Source: Tomocerus qinae (Eukaryota > Arthropoda > Collembola > Entomobryomorpha > Tomoceridae). From it: a stretch of 64,000 nucleotides of DNA. The DNA lies in NCBI GenBank assembly GCA_020055645.1, contig CM034547.1, forward strand, positions 7,177,280 to 7,241,279. The letters run 5' to 3'. Under the pieces are notes generated by a model. The model worked only from the letters and a program-made list of their open reading frames with translations, was not told where the DNA came from and did not search any database. Shown in pieces: positions 15,701 to 41,800 of the stretch. Position numbers and translations under genes: made by a program. The first letter of the stretch is position 1. Each line of letters begins with the position of its first letter.

Positions 15701-18700
15701 ATATTAATTGCATAAAATTTATTTGATTGTTTAATTTTTAGGAATGTTATGGAATTTTAACTGCCCGGTTGACACCATCTCTTGCCTTAAATGGGTCAAA
15801 ACACGTAAAGCCAACTGGTGTGAATGATGTTCATGGAAGATTAATGACTATTTTGGGAGGAAAGACTGTAACAGATAAAATGATGTCAACTTATCTTGGA
15901 GATATTGTTCTTCATTTGGTTTCTCTATGTTTTAATGCAACTGTGACGAGTGGCTGGGGATGCCCGTCAATAAAGTTACCTGAGCCAGAAGTACCATATT
16001 GCTCTGAAGCGGAAGTCCTTGAATGTCTGGACTTTTTACGTGAAACCTGCACTGGACAAACCTCGTCGATAATTTCATATTTAGCATGCACAACTCCGAA
16101 ATCTATTTATAACATTCTTGTTAGTTTTGCTAGTCGTATTCACGAGGCTCACGACCTGCTAGAAAAATTTTGGCGACTTCATCATTTTTCTATGTTTATC
16201 AATCTCCTAAGACAAGAGCCAAGCCATATCTTCCAAGAAATGAAAGAATATGTTTGCCATTTCGTCATTCACGCTTATCTTCGCCTGCTCAAAGGAGAAG
16301 ACAACAAAAACTCTTATTTTGTTCGTTCTGTTCTTTACTTGCTTTCTGATTTTATTCAATTCCTCCTCCAGGATTGTATCACAGAAATGAAGATTTATAT
16401 GTACCACGTTGTCAGTTCTCTAGTGTCTCTGTCTACGAAGTATCCTCATCATCTGCCCATTGTTAAAAAACTACTAGATATGTTGATCTTAAGCCCAAAA
16501 TTAATCGATTGTATCGTCTCTCTGGATCCCTTCCCCGTCCAAATCCCAGAATTTTCAGATTATCGGGCCATTTATGTAGAAAAGAAATATGGGAACCGAC
16601 GAGATGAATGGACGTTGCAGAGAGAGCTTCAGAGTTGTCTGGACGAAGTGAATTCATCAAACGGTCGGTGCACGAAAGAAAGACTGGAGTTTATTAAAGA
16701 TCTGCTTGCCAACCGGAAAAGAGATTTTGAAAAGTTGTTGCGAGATATGGATGAAAAAAGACTTATAGAAAGCAATGCAACAGAAATGATCCACAGATTG
16801 ATTCAAATGCTGGTGGATGTCGTCCTCAAATCCGAAGATGAAACTTTAGTCCGAGAAGCTTGTCGGTGTTTAGGGGAAATCGGCCCCTTGGATTTAGGTG
16901 TCCTGGTACTTCCTCAATACACTAGTGCTACAAAAATATCCTCAATGATCAATGCCATTTCTGCCATTATTGAGATAGTTGCCGGTTATTTAACTAATGA
17001 CGACATCAGCTTAGTTGTGATTGCTGGTCAAGTCTTAACTTCTCTTTTAGAGGTCACTGAATGTGCCAATATACTTAGCGAAGACATAAAAACAAGTGAA
17101 GCCAAAACTAGATTAGGACTACTTTTAAAACCATTTTTATCGGAGAATCCAACTGCAAGAAGTCCTGGACAAGTTATCGATAGACTGTTAGAAGCAAACC
17201 TAAATCTCAATGAAATCAATGAGTTCGTTGATTACCCTGCTTGGATTAGAAAACTAACGTGTGGATTGATTGAGTGCGTTCGGCCGGAAGGCTCTCTCTC
17301 GGATCGACTAATGCCACTTTGTATACAAAAAATTGAGTTTTGTGAGGAGGTTTTACCCTTCATTGTATTCGTAGTTCTCTATGCTGGAAAAACGAACCCG
17401 AATATTCGACACCATTTATCAGCATATATCCGTAATTTCTTTACAAGAAGCATTCAACATTTATTCGGTGGTATGGATTTCACTCGCAGTGTCTCCCCCA
17501 ATCCTTCAGGTACATTTCCAAGTTTGGCAGGACTAAATACCTTTATTGGTACTATCAACGCGTGTTGGGTGCTATTTTACTTTCTAATTAAACTTACTAA
17601 TTTTTAAATCACTTGTGGTATTTAGGTGGAAGTAAGTTAGAGGTACCAATCTTCGTAAATAAACTCGCCCTGCGTAGTCTTTTAAAGTCTATCAATTTTC
17701 TTCGCCAACACACAGCCCCACTACAACCGAAAGATCAATTAAAGTAAGACAACATTTTTTAGCAAATCTTTAAAAATATCTTTATGTCGCATCTTTAATA
17801 TTTTAAATAATTATGTATGGGAATGACTGCTATAGACCTTCACCGTGGGAAAATAACTTTTGGCTAGATGTTGACTACTTGGAAATGGCGAAGATTGCGC
17901 AGTATTGTGGAGCCTATTTAACATCCATTTTGTATGTTGAAATTAGTGCCGTGGACTTGGAAATGTAAGTAAACATAACTAACCATATAATATATGATGA
18001 TTTATATGAAAAAATGGAAATTTTTAGTGCATAAATAAAGGATACGTAATTGCCGTATGCCATTTTAGTAAGTTTTACTTTATTTTTCTAGGAGAGGATC
18101 AAGCGCAGCTAATGATGGGGTCGCACACGAAGAGCAGTTTTACTCTCAAAACACTTCCATGTATCCCCGAAATAGGAATGACACTGCAGAAATGGAAAAG
18201 CTTTTACTGAAGGTAATTTTTACCATGAGAATTGCATTAACCTCAGAAATAATGAAATAAGTAAATATAAATTAAATAAGTTAATAAGTAAAAAAAATGT
18301 CATTCGTAATTGATGTTAGGGTTATACGAAAATTGGTGAAGAGGACGCTGTGTATGGCTGCGGAGGTGCCCTTTTCCTAGATTTCCAAAGTAGTATAAAG
18401 CATCTACAGCAGCGACAACAATGGAGTCGTGTTTTGGCTGCCCAAGATTCTGACTCTGGCGGAATTCCTAACGACGTTAGTATTTGTCGACCCTTAAAAG
18501 AACTAGGTCTTTACAATACTCTATGGACATATCTGGAAGGGGTACAAGCTCGTGAAAAAGTCAATCTGGGGATTCCGTTGTCTGAATTACAATACGAGTG
18601 TGGATGGCGCCTGTCTAAATGGACATTGAACTACGATAAGGCTTCATATATTAAGGATTCACCTCTTCTTGAGAAACGCAGTGCAGGAAGTCGTTTTCAC

Positions 18701-21700
18701 AAGTTTATTTATGATAGCGTTCAAGCGGGTCTTGCCTATGACAGCTTAAAGCATAATGAAAGTATTCAGAAAGGTTTGGAGAGTATTGTGATAGATCTGA
18801 AGCATGCCAGTTTGGAAAGCACAGAAAACCTTTACAGATATATGAGCCGTTTTCAGCTACTGAGAGCCGTCGAAGATTTCTTCACCAATGAAAATGATCA
18901 GTGGATTGATAAGCTTCAGTACAATTGGAAGATACAAGATAAAATTGGGTGCAGTAATTTCAAGTACCTGGAACCCTTTCTATACTTAAGGGCAGCACTA
19001 CTCAATTCACTAAATGCAAATCTTCACAAATCTAAATTGTCTAATGGTTACACGGAATGCATGTTGGAGCTCTTGTCAAAAGCAAGAGAAGCTGGTCGCC
19101 TAGAACTGGCGGAAAATTGTGCTGTGGCTTTGGGAAGTTGTGAAAAGTCAACACGAAAAGAATTAGAAGTCTCCAAAAATCACTGGGCAAGAGGAGAACA
19201 GAATACTGCTACCCATATGCTTCGAAAGTTAATCAGAAAAAATAATCCAGAGACTACAGATCTTTTCGCCAATATGATGCTTTTATATGGAGACTGGTTA
19301 TCCGAAACAATGTTGGAACGACCGCTCGTCATTTTGAAGAAATATTTCATACCAGGATGTAATGTGATGGAAAGCAACCCAGGAAGTTCCCCAAAAGAAA
19401 TTGCCAAGGCCCATTTTGTTGTAGCAAAGTAATATTTTTAAAGTAGAGCAAGTATTAAAAATAACAAGAGTAATAACTAACAAATTTTGTAATGTTATGT
19501 AGATATGCAGACAACCTGTATCAAAACGTTACCCGATATATGCGATCAGATCTTTTTCTAGAAAAACAACGGCAAGTTGAGGTGAAATTTTTTTTGTTTG
19601 ATTCTATTGTCCAATTTTTACAAGTATAGCTAATTAATTGAGATAATTTACAGGCCAGTGCATTCGTGAATACTAATACAAACAGTGCAGACCAAGAAGC
19701 TCGACGGTCTGCCTTAATCTTTCGCAAGCAAAATTCAATTGAACAAGATGAAATCCAGACTACCAAGGTGGAGAAGAAAAAGTTTCTTCTATTGGCTTTA
19801 CGCCATTATCTTCATGGACTTTCAATTTCAAACGACAATGACCTTCTTGTTTTTCGTGCTGTCGCTCTCTGGCTAGAAAATAGCATTCCTCTTCATCCCG
19901 ACGACAATGATCAACTTGACCCAGCTTCAGAAACAAATAAAGTGTTTGCGGAAGAGAATCTTCCTACATACAAATATATCGTAGTTCTCCATCAACTTAG
20001 TGCTCGCATGGGGCTTAGTGAAGCGCCAATCAATTGCTTATTGAATGAAATATTGAGTAAGTAAATATTGAGTATTGAACTTTTTTCGTTTAATATTATA
20101 TATAATGCTAAATAATTTGAACTGATGATCCTTAAATGTTTTTGTAGCAAAATGTGCCCAACAGCATCCTCTACATACAATCCCAATTCTACTTACACAG
20201 TCGTTACTACATAAAGATCAAGATCTACTTCAAAAGAACCACAAGAAACATTTAGAGGTATTTTACCAAAGAATGAATATGAGAAAAAATCTAAGAGAAT
20301 AACAAAATAATAAATTAGAATAGTCTTATAATTTAATCATGAGTGAGTGAGGGTTATTATTGAGTATTATTATTAAGTAATTACTTACTTTCAGGAGCGA
20401 GTTGTTGCGGCAGCAAAAATTGTGGAGTCATTAAAAAAAGACAGGAGTTTGAGTTCCTTAGTGATAAAAATGGAAAAATTATGGATTTCTTTGATTCATG
20501 TGGCCAATCAGAAGGATACCAATGACAGAAATGTTGACGGTCAACGAAGGCAGTTCGGTCCTAAAACAAATTTGACAGCAATAAAGGCGTTGGAGGCAGT
20601 AGCAGTACCTACAATTTATGTCCCGGTTTCACCCACTAGTGAATACGATAGTTTTGTGGGTAAGATTCAAATAGCATTATAATTTTGGCAGTACAAAGTT
20701 GCAGTAACTGTTATTTATTTTTATTTTACAGGAATTTCCGGATTTGATTCATTCTACAACTTGGTTGGAGGCATGAATTCTCCAAAACGAATTTCTTGTA
20801 CTGGAACAAACGGTATCAAGTATAATATGCTTCTAAAGGTAGATAAAATAAAATAATGTTTTTGTTTTCTTGTAGTTTTTTACTTATATCTATTTATATA
20901 TCTAAAATTCAATAGTTGTCACTTATGAATTTGGATGTCTTAATAGGGACAAGATGACCTTCGACAAGATGCGGTAATGCAGCAAGTTTTTGGTGTGATG
21001 AATAGACTACTTCTTGCCGACAGCAAAACCAAGACCAAAAGACTGACAGTGCGGACTTACAAAGTAGTTCCATTATCTCAACGCAGTGGTCTCATAGAAT
21101 GGTGCGAAAACACTCAAACTTTTGGCGACTATCTTGTTGGATCTGAAAATGAGCCTGGTGCTCACGCAATTTACAGGCCAAGTGATTATAGAGCCACCGA
21201 GTGTCGTAAAAAGATGAACGTGAGTTACAAGTTAAATGGACTATAATAATATGTGTATTATAATCCTTTACTGGAATGTCATTTTTATTGAAAAAATTTA
21301 ATTTTTGCACGTTCCGAAATGCAGGAAGTTAAAGACTGTCGAGACCATCTGAAGAAGTTGAGAGTCTATATTGATATAGCTGAAAAATTTAAGCCCGTTT
21401 TCAGGCATTTCTTTTTCGAAAAGTTTAAAGATGCTGGAACCTTTTTCGATAGACGACTTGCGTATACGCGGAGGTAATTTTAATATTTCACATTTAGTGC
21501 TGAATTGGTTTTTTTATTTGGGGACCGGGATTATTATGCTTATAATGGAAATATTTGTTTCCAATTTCAGTGTCGCCACTACATCAATGGTTGGATATGT
21601 ATTGGGGCTAGGAGATAGGTATGTTATTGTGTATCACTTATTGGCATAGCCTGATATTATAATCATGTATCTGAGCTCTAAAATACCGTTTTACAGGCAT

Positions 21701-22423
21701 GTTCTGAATATTCTCATCGACAAAACAACTGCAGAATTGATACATATTGATCTTGGAGTGGCTTTCGAACAAGGCAGAATTCTACCAACTCCAGAAACGA
21801 TTCCATTCAGACTAACTCGGGACATGGTTGATGGAATGGGGGTGTCTGGAATTGAAGGAGTTTTCCGAAAGTAATTGTTTTAGTACACGTCATTTAACTA
21901 ATATAAGATTGGTGATATACTATACTTGAATATTCATTTAATTAACCTTATTCACTTAGGTCGTGTGAACTGACGTTGGAAGTCTTACGGAATAACTCAG
22001 AAATTATTTTAACGATTTTAGAAGTATTGTTGTATGATCCGTTGTATATTTGGACACTGACAGCCGACAGAGTGCAGAAAGTCCAGCCAACAGATTCTCG
22101 TAGTTCTGAGAAGCCTCAGTTAATGTCGAGCACTACTGCTCCAGTCACAGATAGTAAGCAATAATAGTAATTATCAATATAAATGATACAGGTTGAGGTT
22201 TTCCAATGCTGTCTTTTTAACATAGAATTTTTAATTTTCAGTGAGAAACAACTCGGCTGTTAGAGTGTTGTTGCGGTTGAGGCAAAAACTTGCTGGAATT
22301 GAGGAAGGTTGTTCGTCCGGTTCGGCACTCAGTGTTCCAGGTCATGTGACATTATTAGTAGGGAGAGCCATGGATCCGGAAAGATTATGCCGTTTGTTCC
22401 CCGGCTGGCAACCGTATTTGTAG
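9737..22423 (+). CDS. ATM: ATM serine/threonine protein kinase (complete, 34 exons, 2976 aa)
   Basis: Apical PI3K-like kinase of the DNA double-strand-break response; it phosphorylates S/T-Q sites in checkpoint and repair proteins in the nucleus. Exons: 9737-9802, 9999-10142, 10310-10406, 10841-11002, 11082-11211, 11297-11393, 11470-11565, 11667-11906, 12001-12134, 12217-12453, 12527-13497, 13703-13870, 13973-14058, 14154-14304, 14395-14552, 14631-14933, 15035-15301, 15500-15655, 15742-17548, 17626-17743, 17836-17964, 18092-18212, 18320-19428, 19503-19581, 19654-20056, 20148-20257, 20395-20659, 20732-20838, 20947-21219, 21325-21473, 21571-21618, 21697-21870, 21960-22153, 22242-22423. All 33 introns are GT-AG and the summed length is an exact codon multiple. 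Human ATM is 3056 aa. Domains: TAN motif near residues 8-32 ([20 protein letters not shown]); helical repeats; FAT from about 1870 ([15 protein letters not shown]); kinase from about 2600 with P-K2620, GQDDLRQD, catalytic GLGDRHVLN (D2793, N2798) and HIDLG (D2812); regulatory [24 protein letters not shown] ending LFPGWQPYL. Exon borders at weak sites could shift slightly. Confidence 0.96.
20732..21870 (+). other. ATM: ATM kinase catalytic domain exons
   Basis: Five exons encode the catalytic core. SPKRIS carries the presumed ATP-contacting lysine (K2620). [15 protein letters not shown] is the family's conserved N-lobe motif, and [20 protein letters not shown] follows. The catalytic loop GLGDRH is split across the junction of the 48-base exon 21571-21618 and exon 21697-21870; it continues VLNILID. 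The metal-binding motif is [11 protein letters not shown], followed by the activation segment [14 protein letters not shown]. Every residue I know to be needed for catalysis is present, so the kinase should be active. Confidence 0.93.
22242..22423 (+). other. ATM: ATM FATC domain exon
   Basis: The last exon encodes 60 residues plus the stop. [11 protein letters not shown] matches the segment holding the lysine acetylated by TIP60 in human ATM (K3016); the equivalent here is K2932. The chain closes with [19 protein letters not shown], against a human ending with the same DP..L.RLFPGW core. The FATC domain is intact. Confidence 0.93.
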
Positions 22424-23716
22424 ATATATTAGATTATAGATTTGTAGATTATAAATTATATGCATGCATCGAAAATTATCCAAATCTGAAGTCTTTCAAT
22501 TTTATTATTGTCAATCTCGTTAAAAGTAAATGTAACACTAAGCTTAGTCGTATTCTTGTTTTAATTTAGTTATAAGTTTCAGAACTCTAAAACTTATAGT
22601 ACAAGGTAGTCAATATTCTACAGTAATTAGTTAACAGTGATAAAGTTATACAATTTAAATTGTATTTTTACAGAAACTTTTTACGTATTTTAATCCGTAA
22701 ATAAACTTTAATGTTGTAAGTATTCGTTAAATTTATTGCTAATTAAAAGTTTCACTTTTATTTGAAATGTTAAATGTGTGAATTGATTTTGTTTCCACTA
22801 TTAAGTTATTAAGTTTCCACTATTCCACTATAAGGCAATTAATTTATGCAGAGTGTAAAATCGTTATTTCAACATATTGGCTTACGGGTTTGTAATTTTA
22901 TTTGTTTAACAAGCATAACAATGCATAACTTTTCATATATATTTTCATGACTCAATGAAGGAAAGACTGATTATTCTAATCTTTCTTCGAAGACACTGCC
23001 ATTTGAATTTAAAAAAATTCAAATACTTTCTATTCCCAACTCTTATCATACAAGGATTGGATATTATTCAATAATTTAATATTTACTTCCCTGGAAAAAT
23101 TTATTTATTTTGTTGAAAAGATATTTCGCATAATTTTAATTCGCCTCCCGAAGTTGTACGAATTTTTGGGTTACAATAGTACATGATTTCTTTAATGATC
23201 TTTTTATTTTTTAATTTGGGGGATGTGGCTAATGTCCTTACTAAGGTATATATATTATTACCAAAGTCCCTTGAAAAGACAATTTATGCACAGAAAAGGT
23301 CAATAAGTAGGTAGTGTACAATAAATTGCAAAGTTGCAACGAAAGCCCGTAAAAAGTACGTAAATTTGCAGAATGCAGACGCAAAGACGGTTCAAGAAAT
23401 GTATCCGGTATGTTAGTGAAAGCAATATTGTAGTTTTCTGTTCAAAATAATCCGATTGCATTGCAACTCAAATATCGAGTCGATAATATACACGAAAATA
23501 TGTACCATCGAGTGTTCTCAATGACTAACGACACGGATTTTCCTTTGTGGAAACAAAGAGAATCGGAAAAGAGCATTTATATTTTATCAGATTGCATGTA
23601 GAAGAGAATAGAAAACCGGGGTAAAATAATAAATTCTGCATTGATAAGTTTTCACTACAACGATTTTGCACGAGAAAGTGATAAGCCCAAGCCCTATATA
23701 CATCCCTACGATTACG
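22424..23716. other. Intergenic region between ATM and the coiled-coil gene
   Basis: It holds the ATM 3' UTR and the promoter and 5' UTR of the next gene, which is on the same strand. No further exon or repeat was recognised. The 79-codon minus-strand frame at 23525-23764 overlaps the first exon of the next gene and looks like a shadow. Confidence 0.6.
22700..22705 (+). terminator. Candidate ATM poly(A) signal
   Basis: AATAAA about 280 bases past the ATM stop codon, in the right orientation. Position and hexamer are the only support. Confidence 0.5.
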
Positions 23717-25921
23717 ATGGATAACATCACGGATTTTAAAAACGATACATCGGACATGGTTCAACCAAATATTGATGACAGTAACCTAATATCCGAATCC
23801 AAGTAAGTTATTTCGTTGTTTTTTCTTCTGTGTTCTGTATACATAATATAAAAAGGAATATAAATTAATTCGTCTCAGTCGAACAAAGTTTGTTCTGACT
23901 TTTGGTTTTCTTTTCCTTCAGTGGGTCTCAAGAAATATTATTAGGACAACAAAAAATTGCAGGATCTTTGATTGCTGCCAACTTCGATTTACTACTTGTG
24001 CAAACTGACGATAGCGAAGTTAATCACCAGTTGGATGCCACTCTAAAGGATGAGATAGTAAGTTGTGCTTGTTTTCATGCAAATATAAATATTTTAACGA
24101 TGAGATGAGCAATCTTGGGTCATTTGTGTATTCCGTGTGCCAAATAGACATACCGTACAGAGTACTATACCTTTTATGCTGATCATTTTAGGTACCATTG
24201 ATGGATTGTTTATGCGAATCGGTCCAAAATAATTCTACTCTATTAAATTTTGCTGATGGTGCCTTAGATGACAATTTATTATACAAAGAGGGTGATGCCA
24301 TAATGTATCCTGCCATGTATGTTCATATCCATTATTATTGAAACTAAATATTATGACTAAAACTGATTAATATATGAATTGATTTCAGCGGCCAATCTTC
24401 AAACGACAAATGCCAGGTTTCTGAATTGGTTTTTGATGAATCTTCGAAAATAATTTTGAAGCCCCAAACTGAAGAGGATATTTCAACTAAGTGGCAAGCG
24501 GAGAAATCACTTTTGGAAAAAACAATTGTGAGTACGGTGGAGAGGATAATATATCATAGTAATAGAACATTGGGGGACTATTAACAACAATTTTGATCTT
24601 CATTTTCATTCAAATTTTTCGTAAAAAGTTTAAATAAGTTCCATATCGTATCTACTATTTTGTTTATATAGGCTATGAAGAATGCTGCGTTTGAAAAGTA
24701 TGAGTCAAAATCGATACAATTGGAAACAGAAATGGTAAGTGACAAATTAGGAAAAAGGTTTTAAGTTTGTCCTGTTTGTCAACATGGTATTTTATATACT
24801 AGATAAACTAGCTGAAACCTTGCATGTACAGGGTGCTAGAAAAATGTTGAAATATAATCAGTCGAAGCCGGAATTTCATTAACGGCTTTTATATAGAGGA
24901 TTCTCACTATTGTGCATGTGTTGACTATTTTGTTGGTGATTATAATGATCTTCAAAATGCCACGTTTAAATGGCATGAAAAAATATTGAAGAAGTTATAG
25001 TTACGTAGTGGTAGGAGTCACAGTTAGCATCCAGTCCTAATTCTTTCTTAAATATTTTGATTTTTCAGCAATTTCAATGTTTAATAATAAAAATATCACT
25101 TTTCTAACAGGAAAAATTATTGATGAAATTAATGGAGACAAACGAATTGTTGGCTGATAAAACTGAAGAAGTTAAAAATTTGAAATCGAAATTGGAAAGC
25201 AAAGAAACTGAAATTAAATCAATGAAATTTGACATCTCTCAAGCTTTGATAAAAATTGTAGAATTGAAGGAAAGATTGGAAGAGGAACAACTTGTCGTTG
25301 GAATTGTTCGTAATGAGAAAGAGAAGGCTTTAGATGAAGTTGCGAAACTTCATGATGAATTGAACAAACAGCTAGCCAAATGCAAGAAACTAGAAACGCA
25401 ATGTGCATTAACTTCTAATGAGCTGAATAAATTCCAGCAGGTGGAAGGGAACGAAGAATTGCCGTCCAAACGATCTAAAGTGGCTACTGTCAAGGATCAA
25501 GAAAATATTGCACCTACGATTAATTTCAGTGGTCTTAATGTGATGCACTCCTATCCACAAATGAATGGCACTGGGCCATTCTATAAATGTGATATAGATA
25601 GTGAAAATCAGCGGAATGTTTACCCTAGTCATCAAAGAAATTTTAACTTTTACAACGAGTCAACTATCACAATAGGTCAACGTAAACGAAATCAGCAAGA
25701 AAACAAAGGTAGAGAGTTTGAAGAATTGATTTTCAGTTTTATTGTATAAAATAAAATCATTCTAATCAAAGTTCTTTTGATTTTATTTTGTAGACAGTGA
25801 TAATGAAAATGATGGAAAATCTTCGACACAAGCAGTTCCAAAAAATGCTCCTTTTTTACGTGTCGGATTGTCAAGGAAGTCAAGAATCCTGCGTCCGCTT
25901 CACGATTCCACCAACAATTGA
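23717..25921 (+). CDS. Coiled-coil protein with a C-terminal RAD51AP1/RAD51AP2-like motif (7 exons, 424 aa)
   Basis: I do not recognise a named ortholog. Exons: 23717-23802, 23922-24057, 24192-24316, 24389-24527, 24672-24734, 25111-25708, 25794-25921. All introns are GT-AG, phases match and the total is an exact codon multiple. Residues 1-140 are acidic and look unstructured. Residues about 145-295 form a long Lys/Glu/Leu-rich coiled coil (for example DKTEEVKNLKSKLESKETEI). A basic patch PSKRSKV (about 301-307) could be a nuclear localisation signal, followed by DQENIAP, which resembles a KEN-box context without the Lys. Residues 320-395 are Asn/Gln-rich. The end, from F403, reads FLRVGLSRKSRILRPLH and then five more residues. 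From memory, RAD51AP1 and RAD51AP2 end in a GLSR...PLH or GLSR...LHP motif that binds RAD51. Known family: RAD51 accessory proteins. Inferred: RAD51 partner in recombination or meiosis. Alternative: an unrelated coiled-coil protein with a chance motif. Confidence 0.75.
25843..25921 (+). other. Putative RAD51-binding tail
   Basis: Bases 25843-25921 encode the final 25 residues, VPKNAPFLRVGLSRKSRILR followed by PLHDSTNN, minus the first few residues of the exon's acidic start. The GLSR core is followed, after a short basic-hydrophobic stretch, by PLH near the C-terminus, the same order and place as in RAD51AP1. The Leu-to-His spacing here is 11 residues; I recall 10 in human RAD51AP1 (L319 and H329 of the literature), so one residue appears inserted. 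Confidence 0.5.
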
Positions 25922-27444
25922 ATTACTTCTAGTCTTGGAATTTGTGTACCACTACTATCACTGTAGGGTGACTACAGTTGGATGGAATATATAATTTTAT
26001 GCAATCAATTTACCTCGTAATTGGAAATCGCAATAACAGAAATCGTTTGAATTATTTGTAGTCATTAGTTTTGAGTTGAGTATTACAATTACAACAATGG
26101 TTGTAGTCCTTATTCCTTTCGTGCGTTAAAAGGGATGTGTTCATTTGCTACTTAGTTCGCTAGGGCTTTTCACAAAAATAGTTTTTTCATATTTAAATAA
26201 TATGGAGACATTATTTCGTCTACATTTGTTTCACATATATTTACTCTATAATCCTATAAGTTTTTGTGCATGGTATATGCTCTGCCCTAAGTTTATTAGA
26301 TAGATTGTTCAAATTGTTCTTATAGTGTAGTGTTTTACTGTTTAATTATTGTTTGTTTATATACGCTTAACCTTGAGTTTTTGCTATATTTTGTTTAATG
26401 TTGAATTTGGTTCTTTGATACGTTTTTGTGTACTTTACTGTTAAAATTGAAAATTAAAATGCTTTGTTAAATGTAGCCTTTTGTGGTATGAAAGAATTAC
26501 TTAAAATACTCCAATGCAATGATGCCTCATCTTTATTATTTTCCAACATGATGTTTCGTTTAACCTACTATAGTTATAACTTATAAATGCTAAAAATGTG
26601 CATGAACTCTTTCATTCATTACGGTATTAGAACTTTATTACTATTTAATTTAGCTATTGTGGTTATTTAACCATAAAAGTGATTATAATGTACATTTACT
26701 GTACACATAAGACACCAACGTTTGGCTTGGGTGTAATTTACCGTCTATCTATAGCGGGCGTCCCGTTTACATCGTCATGTTGCTCTTGCGTATGAACATC
26801 CCTCTAATTCTAAATCAGTCAGTTTCTGTAGCCTTAGCACAAACATTTCTGAACTAAAAATCTCGTCGTACAATAAGATTTGATACGTTGTACGTGATGA
26901 CATAATAGTAATTTTTATTACGTTTTGTTATTAAACGTGCAACAGTTACGTGTGTACAGTATACAGACGAAAAGCACTGTGCATACATAGCCTTATATGT
27001 ATTATGTTTTTAACATAGATACCAATTAGTACGTGAAGTTATTGCACGTGAAATCAGAAATAGTAAAAGCTCAAAATTAAACTCAATTTATTTTTTACTT
27101 TATCAAATTTACTCTACAATTACTAATAGTATGGAGATCCTGGTCATTTATTGTGAGTAGCTTTACTAACAATCTAACTAAAACCAAAAGTTACGAAATG
27201 ATTTGTGAAACCTTGTTTATATCCATAATGATTAATTAAAGGGGAGGGCTTAAATGGAGAACTTTTTATTTAGGAGAAGAACATTATGTCGACATATGAA
27301 ATTAATTTATATTTTTAATTTTCCAAATTGTAATAATTAATTTGATTACAACGCATTAACGCATCAATACATTTATAAATATTCATATATAACTTATAAT
27401 TTCAGGAATTGTGCTTAAGAATTTGACCAGATTAAGGACGTAAA
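25922..27444. other. Intergenic region between the coiled-coil gene and the Neuralized-like gene
   Basis: AT-rich, without a supported gene. It includes the 3' UTR of the coiled-coil gene and the promoter of the next one. An acceptor-like ATAATTTCAG ends at 27406, upstream of the next start codon, so the next gene may have a spliced 5' UTR exon here. Confidence 0.55.
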
Positions 27445-35834: not shown

Positions 35835-38800
35835 TCATGTTTGGTGTAAATCGAGAAACTCTGCTAAGGTCACATCGTACGCGTCTTCATTCTCCGATGG
35901 CTTCAGTTCTAACAGAAAACTATCTTCGTGGCAGTAATGCTTTAGCATTTCATCGTCGATTTTCGCAACAAGACTGCAAAAATAAAACATATCTTATTAG
36001 CATTATATTTCATTAATTAATGTAGGTATTTATTAAATAGGATAATCAGATGGATGATTTAAATGCATTTTTAATTATAGAAAACGCAATCTAAACATTC
36101 AAAAACGCAATGCACTTTTGTATTCCATTAACAAAAGATTTTGCAAATAATTCCAGAGCAATGACCCAGGGAAATATGCGGCAACCACTTGCAAAGTGTA
36201 AACTAAAGACTCATCTCATAATCATGTCCAACAAAAAGACATGCAAAATTCTCATGCAGCTATTTGTGCATGCTAGATAACGTAAAACGCATTTGGGTAG
36301 ATTGTGATTCATATTATTTGCCTCTTTGTATGCCCGGTGCCTATCAACCAGTCAGTCTGCCACTTTTTAGATGAAAAATGCAAAGCAATGAAAACTGAAG
36401 TTGCCCCTAACCTAAACAGCCTACCTGCTATATCGCATATCACAGATAGAACCAAGCCCTCTTTATTTCATTTACAAGATCCTCTTCAATATATAATTCA
36501 ATTCAAACCATTGTCATGTAAGATGTGCAGAGATAAAAGATGAGTCCATCTACATCATCCATTCAGAGCCAACAAAATAACAACAATTGAACATTATTCT
36601 GATTTTGTTATTCGCATCATACAAAACACTCTTCTAGAATACACAAGGATGACTGACTGGTTCATTTCCAACATCCCTGTGCATTAAATAGCAATTGTGC
36701 TTTCAAGACTAATCTCTTTTCTTAATAAAAATCACAGAAACTGGCTCATTCACTTCTCGACTTACTCTTAATCGACTTAACTAACGTCTGCTATAAACAT
36801 GGAAAATGACTGACGAACGTAACGTAAAAGCTAACCACTGCCAATAAATACAACTCTAATAGAACAACTGATTGCCTATTTCATTGACTGTTTTTCTGAT
36901 TGCCCAATCAAATGTAAATTCACTCACCCCTAGTAATTCACAATATTTACATCGAATCATTTCAAGAATATCAAATTTTATAGACTACCAAGTGCTTATT
37001 AAACGGATTTCCCATTTGCATATATCTTTACAGTAACAGGCATTTATAATCTTTGCATATATTAAATGCTTAGTCACAGATGCTGCATATTCAGTCAAGA
37101 TTTCAGTTAGCAAAAGATTCAATCAACACAAAAACATGTAAATTCAAGTAAATGTCAAAATAAATAGGATTGCATTCACGAATTCCAGCTTAACAGAAAG
37201 CATCTGTTGCATGGACACTTATCCTCACTCATTGAATATTCTTTAGGGTCCTTGTACAAGTGTGAAATTGCTTTCTCTGCCTAGACAAATTATCAATCTA
37301 CCGAATTGATTGTTTTTAATTTTCAAAATGTACAGCTTAAAAAGAATTATCTCCCAAAGTACCTTAATTCAGCGAGAATTTGGAAGCGTACCTATTAAAA
37401 TTGAATATATAAAAATCTGCTGGCGTTAGTAATTGAGACAGAGATATGCAAAGAACCACGCGTTAATGTGGCTTAAATTCAATTACAACTGACTAATTGT
37501 TCTCCCAAACGAACGAACCTTTTCTGCTTCATACACATCTGGGTCTACAATTTTGTCTGACTTTTTGGCAGACTGAAATGTATCAGAGTATTCTTTGCAA
37601 CATTTGCAAATCGACGGTCAGACAGGTAGAATATTAAATGAAACTCCTACTGTCCACTGGCTAATAGCGATCCACCCACCCTTAAATGATTTTCCCTTAA
37701 GAATTAATTACAGGAGCCTAAATGCAATTAATATTGGCAATCTCGCCTCACTTGTCTGTTTTATGCCTGCACTTTATTCAAAGCTATGCATATGCATGTG
37801 TACTTCTCGGTTGATTACAATTCAAGAAGCCAATTGAATTGCAGTAGACAAGCCAAAACAGACAGAGCAGACCAAATAGAGTGATTTTACAATTCGTATC
37901 ATGACATGCCAGTAGTTGCTTTATTAACTTTTTGTTTGAGCATAATATTTTCCTGTTAATTAGCATACGATTGCATTTTTCATTTTTCTTGGGATTTCTT
38001 CCGATAATGAATGCAGTGCATGTTTTACACTCTCAAAATGTAAATGGAACATATACAGTGTTGCTCACATAGTGCATTGTTTGCTTACAATAACAGTCAA
38101 TGAATAAATAATATGCAAATGAATTCAAAATATGAATCCCCCATGCAATGAACATCCTTAAGAGCATCCTTACTCAACATGCATTGCATATAGGTAGGTA
38201 TACTATTATTTATACGATATACTTTTGCGAGACATGCTGATTATTTTGCAAGTGTTGGTTAGGAAAAGAGAAAATATTTTGAACTCACCCTTTGGAATTC
38301 CTTCTGTAGAGATTCTTGACAGAACCCATAGAAATCTTGTACTTATCTTCAAGCTGTAAAAATTGAACAAGGTTTAATTAACTTATCATTTTCAATAGAT
38401 TAGCCAAAAATAGTTGGGGGACAGCCAATTAAAAGAGACTTACAGCGGAGAGAAGTCCGAGGGTCGTTGGCGGGGCGAGATGTAAAGCCGTGAAAGCTTC
38501 TTCAGGCTCTTGTCTTACGAACAACATGAGACGTTCTGAAGCCGGAGGGATAAGTCTCATTCGTTTGATGGACGGAGAATTGAAAACGCTGTCGTTGGAC
38601 ACTCCGTTTGGCTCCAGAACCCCCACAACCGTACCGCCGTCCTTCTTCTCACTGCAAACAGACACAACAATAGAGAAACAATCATAAATCATGTTCTGCA
38701 TGACAATCTCATCACTAGCCATCCAATCCCCAGCCCATATTAAATATAACATCCATCCTATCCATTTTATCCTTCTCTCATCATAGACGTAGACGCTGCA

Positions 38801-41800
38801 GTATCGTACAAAATAAACACTAACCATAAGTGGGCACTATTTATTTCTAAACTAATCCCACTCTGTCCATACACACTTCATGACTATAGACTCCAGCAGA
38901 TAAGTCATTAATAACAGTCATAACAAACAATAGAAGTGTTTGCATCTGTTTGGCTCACTGCTCTATAGTTCGTCTGCCGACTCCTTCACTTTTTCTTAGT
39001 CTTCCTCTTTCTATTACCATGTACATCTGTTTCCCTATTGTTTGTTATTTTTCTTTGAACCGCCAATCAAATCGATACTACTCTCCAGATACACTCGTAA
39101 TTCATATTGCTATTATTCTCTCGTCCATTGCTCCTCCTTTTCGTCAAACCCTTACACCTCGACATGAGCAACGAACCCTACACTTTCAAATAGTCTATAC
39201 CATAATAGTACTTTCTTACGTAAGCTAATAAATATTCTGAAAAACTGAAGCAGCTAACTGCAGGAACGGAAAAAACTTTTTCTTAGCTCCTATCTCTCTA
39301 TTCTAGATATACCTAAGAATCTTATTGTAGGAATTCCTATTTTGTCTGGAAACATTGTACAAGTCAGTCGCACAGCGTACTAGAAATCTAAATCGGTTTA
39401 TTAATTGTCTTTATAATGTGAGACTAAAGCAAGTTCCTCCCGGCAGGTGGTCCGGCTTGGATTCATGGCCAACCGGAGCCGTCATTTCTTGACTAAATTT
39501 TATAATAACATTATTGTCTCATTACACTCTGGCTAACCACACATCACTACGGGTTAAATCTAATTTCCTAAATACCTACACCATTTGTTTAGATTAGGTA
39601 TAGAGTGATGTGATGATAGCTAACTTAAATTCGTTTGGCTTTGTTGACCACTAATGGAATAGCACCGTAGCAGGCTGACTTGTTGATCTTAATTAACTCG
39701 TCACGAGTCAATTATACAGACTGGCTGGATAGTGGTTGATATGATGGTTCACTTTAATTAGAATACCTGCACTCTCACAACACTAAATCCCTATAAAGTC
39801 TTACAAATTAACAATTACAGCTCAAGAAACTTGTCTACAGTTTGAAAAATTGAATTTTATACTGACTAGTAAGTGATTGACACCTTTTCTGACTATGAAT
39901 GAGATCGAGAGAAGGACGAATTTAAAAGACAATCAAACTTAATTATGTACCATAAGGAGATAGTACAAATTGGGTTGGGTAAGGGTGTAATTTTCTTAAA
40001 GAGCATTACAAGGAGTACTTAACGATTTAGCTACTATTGTTAGTAAGTGCAATGCAAATGACTCCAATTTTGTTTATTTTACACTTTCCGTTAAAGAAGC
40101 TGTACAAGAGAACGATGATACGGTGAAGAAGATAATTTTCTAGCGTCGTTTGGAAAGATAGAGCATGAAAGGAAGTGGAGAAAAAGACAGAGAAACGGAA
40201 GATGTAAATAGTAAACAAAAGAGTAGTGCTGGGTGGGGGGATGGATGACAAAGACAAAGAGAAGTTTGCTGGTTGACAGAAACAGATAAGGGCAAGAGAT
40301 CTTACTTGATGACAGTGACGGGCATCGCGGAAGAAGAATTCGAAGAACTGTGTGTTGGAGAAGGCGGGTGACATCCGTTGGATCGTGGATGGTGGTAGGG
40401 AGGAGATTCTGGCGGGAAAGTGTTATGGAACTTGAGGACGGCTGGAGGGTTGTGATGACTTGGTGGTGGGTGATGATGGTTGTTACTGTTAGTATTCGGA
40501 GGAGGATGATGAGGTTGTTGATGGTGAGGCGGGAGGGACAAGGAAGGCGTAGGCGTGTTCGATCCGTTGCTCGCAGAGCCACAACTCTGAGGAGAGGACT
40601 CAGAACCGGGCAACACATTATTCGAACTGGAGTTGTGCAGGTCCGCAGCTCTAAAATCAGTTCAGTCAGTTCCCAATTGATGCTTTTTTTCAATTTTTCC
40701 AATGCTTATTATTTTGTTCACATGCAGAAAAACTAAGCTAAATAGATGCTAATTTCTAGGTCGAAACTAAAGGATGCAATTTATTTGTATTGAGATTTTC
40801 TTTAGAAAAAGCTTGTCTTTAAAGATCTTACTGTACTTTTACACTAAATGGTGTTAATATAAAAGGAAAATAATTGTTTGAGAAAACATTCGCCATGCCA
40901 TGCAATGCTTTAGTTTCATTAATTTCTAGTACATTATCGTGTTTGTAAAGTCATAATTTGTATTTTGCAATGCATTGTTATGTTAATCTTGAATGCGGTA
41001 GGTAGCCAGTTAACTAACTGTGTTAAATATGTCTATAGTAGACTGCAAGTAAAGTAATCTTGTTTATCTGCCTTCTTTGGAAGAACCTCTTGTAGTAAAC
41101 CATATCGCAGAATTTCGCATAGCTTATGTGTACCTAGATCCAAGCAACCATGCTTTGCCAGGTAGGTACCTTTTTATCTATTCATTAGTATGTATGCCAA
41201 GTATTGTTTATTTTATTACAGATATCTTTTTACTGTCAACTGCTGACTTGACCGCAGACTGATTTGGCTGTACAATGACCTCTTCCTTTAGTTATGAGAA
41301 ACCATTTGAAATGACTAAAATTTTTAAATGCATGTAGACATCTAAGGTTTGCAAGATACAAAGAACTAAGTAACCTACATTATGCAATGCATAGCACGTA
41401 CTAGTGAACATCACAGAAAATACAGACTCAGACTGCGTGATTACAATTGTAAGAAAAAAAGAAGCCAGCCTCTCCTTATATTGAATCATCAGTTGTCTGT
41501 CATATTCAAAAAAGTAAGGATACAAAATCTTATTTTTTCAAAAAAAAATCTACATATGTTTAAGGCACGAGATGAAAAATATCTGTGAGCAGAATATTTT
41601 TGGGGAAAATGAGGTAATCGTTAAATCGTAGTAATTGTAGTCTTAATGAACATTCTTTGGATTAAAAAAAACAATTACAAATATCATGGGCAAAATATTA
41701 AAGTGGCAAGTCTCCATTAAAGATGAAGACATTTCCGTTACAATTGCTAACTAATTGCAATCAACTGCATTAGCCCGGTATCTCAATGGGGTTTTCTAAT

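Follow-up and report, generated by a model that had tools for sequence, protein, structure and literature searches.

HOP2-MND1 and Swi5-Sfr1 are coiled-coil partners acting on RAD51/DMC1, and we know of no RAD51AP1-type tail in either of them. RAD51AP2 is reportedly vertebrate- and meiotic-specific, and its C-terminal RAD51-interacting domain is said, in the title of a 2006 paper, to be common to RAD51AP1. The closest described system is human RAD51AP1, for which excerpts of a 2025 cryo-EM and mutant study (PMC12704761) define a Site-M, 332-LRLGLSR-338, with L334 and L336 in a RAD51 pocket of F92, R95, I100 and T119 and with R333 making a charge contact with RAD51, and a Site-C, in which L345 and H346 lie in a RAD51 groove at D184/Q145. 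According to the same excerpts, L336Q severely disrupts binding and H346A severely impairs it, the WVPP Site-N is the DMC1 site, and the body of the protein is largely disordered and binds DNA/RNA (PMC12704761). Among the papers returned by searches of the open-licence PMC literature, no title or beginning of an abstract describes an invertebrate or coiled-coil RAD51AP1-like protein, and RAD51AP1 does not occur in PMC6316741.

The window analyzed here (the whole stretch of 64,000 nucleotides from Tomocerus qinae) contains a spliced gene for a 424-aa protein which, judged from its sequence, is probably a RAD51-binding accessory protein, RAD51AP1-like at its tail and with a different, probably dimeric body. 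Its likeness to human RAD51AP1 (PDB 9qnc, 9qn8) lies in a C-terminal LR(L/V)GLSR...PLH tail, in which the contact residues are kept or conservatively replaced. It differs from the human protein in the Leu-to-His spacing (11 here, 10 in human) and in one Leu-to-Val change, in the absence of the WVPP Site-N, and probably in its body, an acidic coiled coil in place of a largely disordered, DNA/RNA-binding one. It can be likened to RAD51AP2 from the 2006 title alone, which names a C-terminal RAD51-interacting domain as in RAD51AP1, and it differs from HOP2-MND1 and Swi5-Sfr1 in that it has no Pfam match to their families.

Gene structure, neighbors and protein body

The gene and the features to which the text refers are as follows.

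18320..22423, + strand: ATM kinase gene, identified part (FAT, kinase and FATC), from matches to ATM chains and domain pieces
23717..25921, + strand: spliced gene of seven exons for the 424-aa protein, with GT-AG introns, the frame kept and an upstream in-frame stop
23717..23802, + strand: exon 1, with the start codon
23922..24057, + strand: exon 2, N-terminal acidic region
24192..24316, + strand: exon 3
24389..24527, + strand: exon 4, in which the coiled coil begins at about residue 148
24672..24734, + strand: exon 5, coiled coil
25111..25708, + strand: exon 6, coiled coil until about residue 291, then a linker, modelled mostly with low confidence (heptads, AlphaFold2)
25709..25793, + strand: intron 6, with donor GTAGAG, an in-frame stop at 25747-25749 and AATAAA at 25750; a possible alternative end
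25794..25921, + strand: exon 7, encoding the C-terminal tail, in which LRVGLSR (404-410) resembles Site-M and PLH (417-419) resembles Site-C, from the alignment with the human tail and a below-cut-off match to Pfam PF15696

All six introns have GT-AG borders, their phases are 2, 0, 2, 0, 0 and 1, the 424 codons run without a frame break, and an in-frame stop lies at 23645, 72 nt 5' of the ATG. When the exons were spliced in frame, the coordinates and the length of 424 residues given by a previous sequence-only reading proved to be correct; of the "seven in-phase exons" in that reading, the number of exons and the kept frame stand, but the phases differ. The reading had also placed the gene next to ATM, and this was borne out: a 370-aa FAT piece matched ATM chains at 8.4e-25 versus 2.8e-7 for ATR, and two kinase pieces followed by FATC (end at 22420) lie upstream on the same strand, so that the coiled-coil gene starts 1.3 kb 3' of the ATM FATC codons. 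Downstream, a gene with a Neuralized domain begins at 27436. Farther along the window, positions 38429-38833 (- strand) match a GRHL1-like C-terminal domain (31.0 bits, cut-off 27), which suggests an exon of a grainyhead gene.

The protein (48 kDa) is acidic, with a pI of 4.85. Its net charge per 40-residue block ranges from -7 to 0 and reaches +4 in the last 24 residues only; short basic clusters occur at 303, 374 and 410, and there is no strongly basic stretch outside the tail in the 424 residues. These charges and the long helix of the exon 6 model speak against a body like that of RAD51AP1. The long coiled coil claimed by the sequence-only reading is well founded, since a single best heptad register extends across 19 windows of 28 residues (starts 148 to 274), 74 of 10,000 shuffles attained the 3.5-residue periodicity seen in residues 143-292, and the first part of exon 6 is modelled as a helix. 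I, L, V or M occupies 23 of the 42 a/d positions in residues 148-291, and the heptads point to a coiled coil that would form a dimer. In the single-sequence AlphaFold2 model of exon 6 (overall pLDDT 68.7, pTM 0.29), the helix spans exon residues 2-112, with block pLDDT values of 79-95 up to residue 100 and 66 in the next block; past the helix the model is mostly of low confidence, with strands of middling confidence at 152-162 and 168-179.

The C-terminal tail compared with RAD51AP1

The C-terminal tail of the 424-aa protein reads LRVGLSRKSRILRPLH, and L408 and H419 lie in FLRVGLSRKSRILRPLH. These letters and both positions, as well as the extra residue in the Leu-to-His spacing, had been given in the sequence-only reading and were confirmed by the spliced translation and by comparison with the human tail QSLRLGLSRLARVKPLHPNATST, which we took from PDB chains 9qnc_B and 9qn8_B. 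In the alignment from LRL to PLH, 10 of the 15 human residues are identical and one residue is inserted. Human R333, L334, L336, L345 and H346 correspond to R405, V406, L408, L418 and H419, the sole change being Leu to Val; thus the Site-M pattern LR.GLSR is found as LRVGLSR at 404-410, with L408 at the place of human L336, and the Leu-His pair of Site-C is found as L418 and H419. The extra residue falls between Site-M and Site-C, and R416 was the one left out in the scoring described below.

Pfam RAD51_interact (PF15696) matched residues 404-420, exactly on the tail, with 13.8 bits (E = 0.066) for the whole protein, 14.8 bits for 45 residues and 19.0 bits (E = 0.0017) for the last 25 residues. 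Even the isolated tail stays under the curated gathering cut-off, which is 25 bits, while the human tail used as a control scored 47.6 bits (23 residues) and 74.1 bits (49 residues). Leaving out R416 raised the score of the tail from 19.0 to 23.5 bits (+4.5), which is still under the cut-off of 25, so the low score is partly due to the spacing. Three exact scrambles of the last 25 residues gave no match to PF15696. Among the seven weak Pfam matches of the whole protein, RAD51_interact alone peaks outside the coiled-coil region. The other family matches (ATG16, LMBR1, SMC, Rad50 and more) were weak, and were rejected as generic or as lying over the coiled coil; none of the family matches listed has its best stretch in the acidic N-terminal region, which extends to about residue 132.

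The match on the tail and the kept residues of Site-M and Site-C fit the "RAD51 accessory protein" of the sequence-only reading. Orthology to RAD51AP1 or RAD51AP2, however, is unsupported, because the protein lacks Site-N, has an acidic body and, over its whole length, matches no PDB chain at E <= 1. That it is a true RAD51AP1 or RAD51AP2 ortholog, so diverged that the tail alone is recognizable, is an unlikely explanation, in spite of the similarity of the tail to that of RAD51AP1 and of the fact that family and protein searches of the genome gave no other RAD51AP1-like tail. Neither W.PP, F.PP nor PP occurs anywhere in the 424 residues (the sole W is at 151), and the long coiled coil contrasts with the largely disordered, DNA/RNA-binding RAD51AP1 described in the excerpts of PMC12704761. 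In a phmmer search with the 424 residues against PDB chains, which included the full-length RAD51AP1 chain 9qn8, there were no matches at E <= 1, nor was RAD51AP1 recovered when the tail was searched against PDB.

The family search and the search with a human RAD51AP1 piece were insensitive enough to miss the present locus, and a separate RAD51AP1 may have been overlooked. The protein search of the genome with the tail gave this locus as the only match. The genome-wide PF15696 search gave no matches and thus cannot show the absence of others, since the present locus was likewise missed. Residues 306-354 of the 9qn8 RAD51AP1 chain gave one match in the genome (C3:6399840, E = 4.85), which we rejected as chance, its frame being without GLSR and without LH; as this search with the human piece also missed the present locus, the genome may hold a second RAD51AP1-like gene. 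Searches for relatives in two collections not built from animals yielded 17 pattern stretches in genome_contigs and 3 in viral_contigs, none of which was confirmed, and the BRCA2 helical domain had no match in a search without signal anywhere.

Chance expectation and a possible alternative 3' end

Another explanation is that the resemblance arose by chance and that the basic tail is a nuclear-localization or a cyclin or other docking peptide of an unrelated coiled-coil protein (e.g. structural or mitotic). The basic RKSR and RILRPL would suit short generic motifs, as we presume these to be defined, the Pfam score is under the cut-off, and the remaining family matches are generic coiled-coil noise. 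We estimated the chance expectation from the score of the alignment between the tail and the human tail, which was 50. Shuffling all 424 residues 20,000 times never gave this score (maximum 42), shuffling the 60 C-terminal residues 50,000 times gave it once (at 53), and a Gumbel fit gave 9e-6 per protein, or approximately 0.14 per 15,000 such proteins. The tail was at the top of 4,091 six-frame pieces in the window (runner-up 34), and among the 12,337 open pieces (at least 10 residues each, 324,574 residues in all) of a 200-kb sample from other parts of the genome the best score was 36; an exponential fit to the tail of the scores gave approximately 0.07 equal matches per 6.4 million residues.

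The chance expectation per proteome is thus approximately 0.07-0.14, with the C-terminal position not yet required, although the motif was picked out among many known motifs, which weakens these figures to some extent. Extrapolation over the whole genome in all six frames gave approximately 6 equally good matches, which favors a chance origin; given this expectation, it is the location of the match, C-terminal and within a real gene, that makes it meaningful. Together with the agreement of the binding-critical residues, the small expectation per proteome makes a chance resemblance improbable.

It is very improbable that the gene model itself is at fault, that is, that exon 7 lies outside the main transcript and that the protein normally ends within intron 6 (GREFEELIFSFIV), with polyadenylation at 25750: the donor GTAGAG does depart from the usual consensus, AATAAA stands immediately behind the in-frame stop, and 25921-27000 has no AATAAA, with ATTAAA at 26453 and 26930 only, but exon 7 stays open in the frame needed, its acceptor is ordinary by eye, the tail matches Pfam, and both ends may be in use. 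From a transcript ending in intron 6, a protein with the coiled coil but lacking the tail would be made, and such a tail-less isoform is possible.

RAD51-type proteins of the genome and the predicted mode of binding

A search of the genome with PF08423 gave 22 exon-level matches, which were joined into genes by eye. The canonical RAD51 is at C5:2986654-2987900 and scored 612 bits to the PDB entry "RAD51 homolog 1", the chain used for comparison, which we take to be human; 161 of the first 204 aligned columns are identical. Two divergent copies of RAD51 are at C1:106604563-106606347 (dupA) and C1:32514299-32515514 (dupB). The former scored 399 bits to RAD51 homolog 1 versus 297 bits to the best DMC1 chain, and, with the exons joined by eye, dupA and dupB are identical to the canonical RAD51 at 194 of 344 and 209 of 300 aligned residues, respectively. 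There is also a DMC1-like gene at C1:107760398-107761562, so named from what we take to be features of DMC1.

At the six RAD51 contact residues compared, the canonical protein of the genome is identical at F92, T119, Q145 and D184 and has conservative changes at two (R95K, I100V). Relative to PDB RAD51, the dupA protein is changed at two of these positions, to K95 and E184; dupB shows I92, K95, V100, S119 and T184, and the DMC1-like protein K95, F100, S119 and A184. Consequently D184, the partner of the tail His, is kept in one of the four, the canonical RAD51. This pattern agrees, as weak evidence, with a tail directed at RAD51; the contact residues are a weak test, since RAD51 is conserved anyway and the D-to-E change of dupA is mild. 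D50 is named as a further RAD51 contact in the excerpts of PMC12704761; by our own count, position 50 is E both in PDB RAD51 and in the RAD51 of the genome.

If the protein is a RAD51-binding accessory protein, L408 with V406 and R405 would enter the pocket between the N-terminal and ATPase domains of RAD51, and L418/H419 would dock at RAD51 Q145/D184. The coiled-coil dimer would display a pair of tails on a flexible linker, which would let one molecule hold two RAD51 protomers or filaments, and RAD51 would be recruited or stabilized. DNA bridging as by RAD51AP1 and DMC1 binding via Site-N would not be expected, because the body is acidic and there is no WVPP site. Going further, we tentatively suggest a lineage-specific dimeric (bivalent) RAD51 clamp, a reading that is possible rather than probable, in which an unrelated acidic coiled-coil scaffold carries a RAD51AP1-type tail that was independently acquired or alone kept. 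Such a clamp would recruit or cross-link RAD51 over DMC1 and the two divergent copies, and use of a different last exon, without the tail, may turn it off. Provided that the tail is real, Site-M and Site-C would form a portable RAD51-docking peptide module beyond the architecture of RAD51AP1/2, in this case alongside three RAD51-type genes, and both the module and recombinase selectivity via residue 184 would become directly testable.

We also considered whether the loss of Site-N is coupled to a loss of DMC1, which is absent from most Hymenoptera surveyed according to an excerpt of PMC10403939, and rejected this, the DMC1-like gene being present. A further RAD51-family match, at C1:102973108-102973827, is a single open frame of 299 aa and is apparently intronless.
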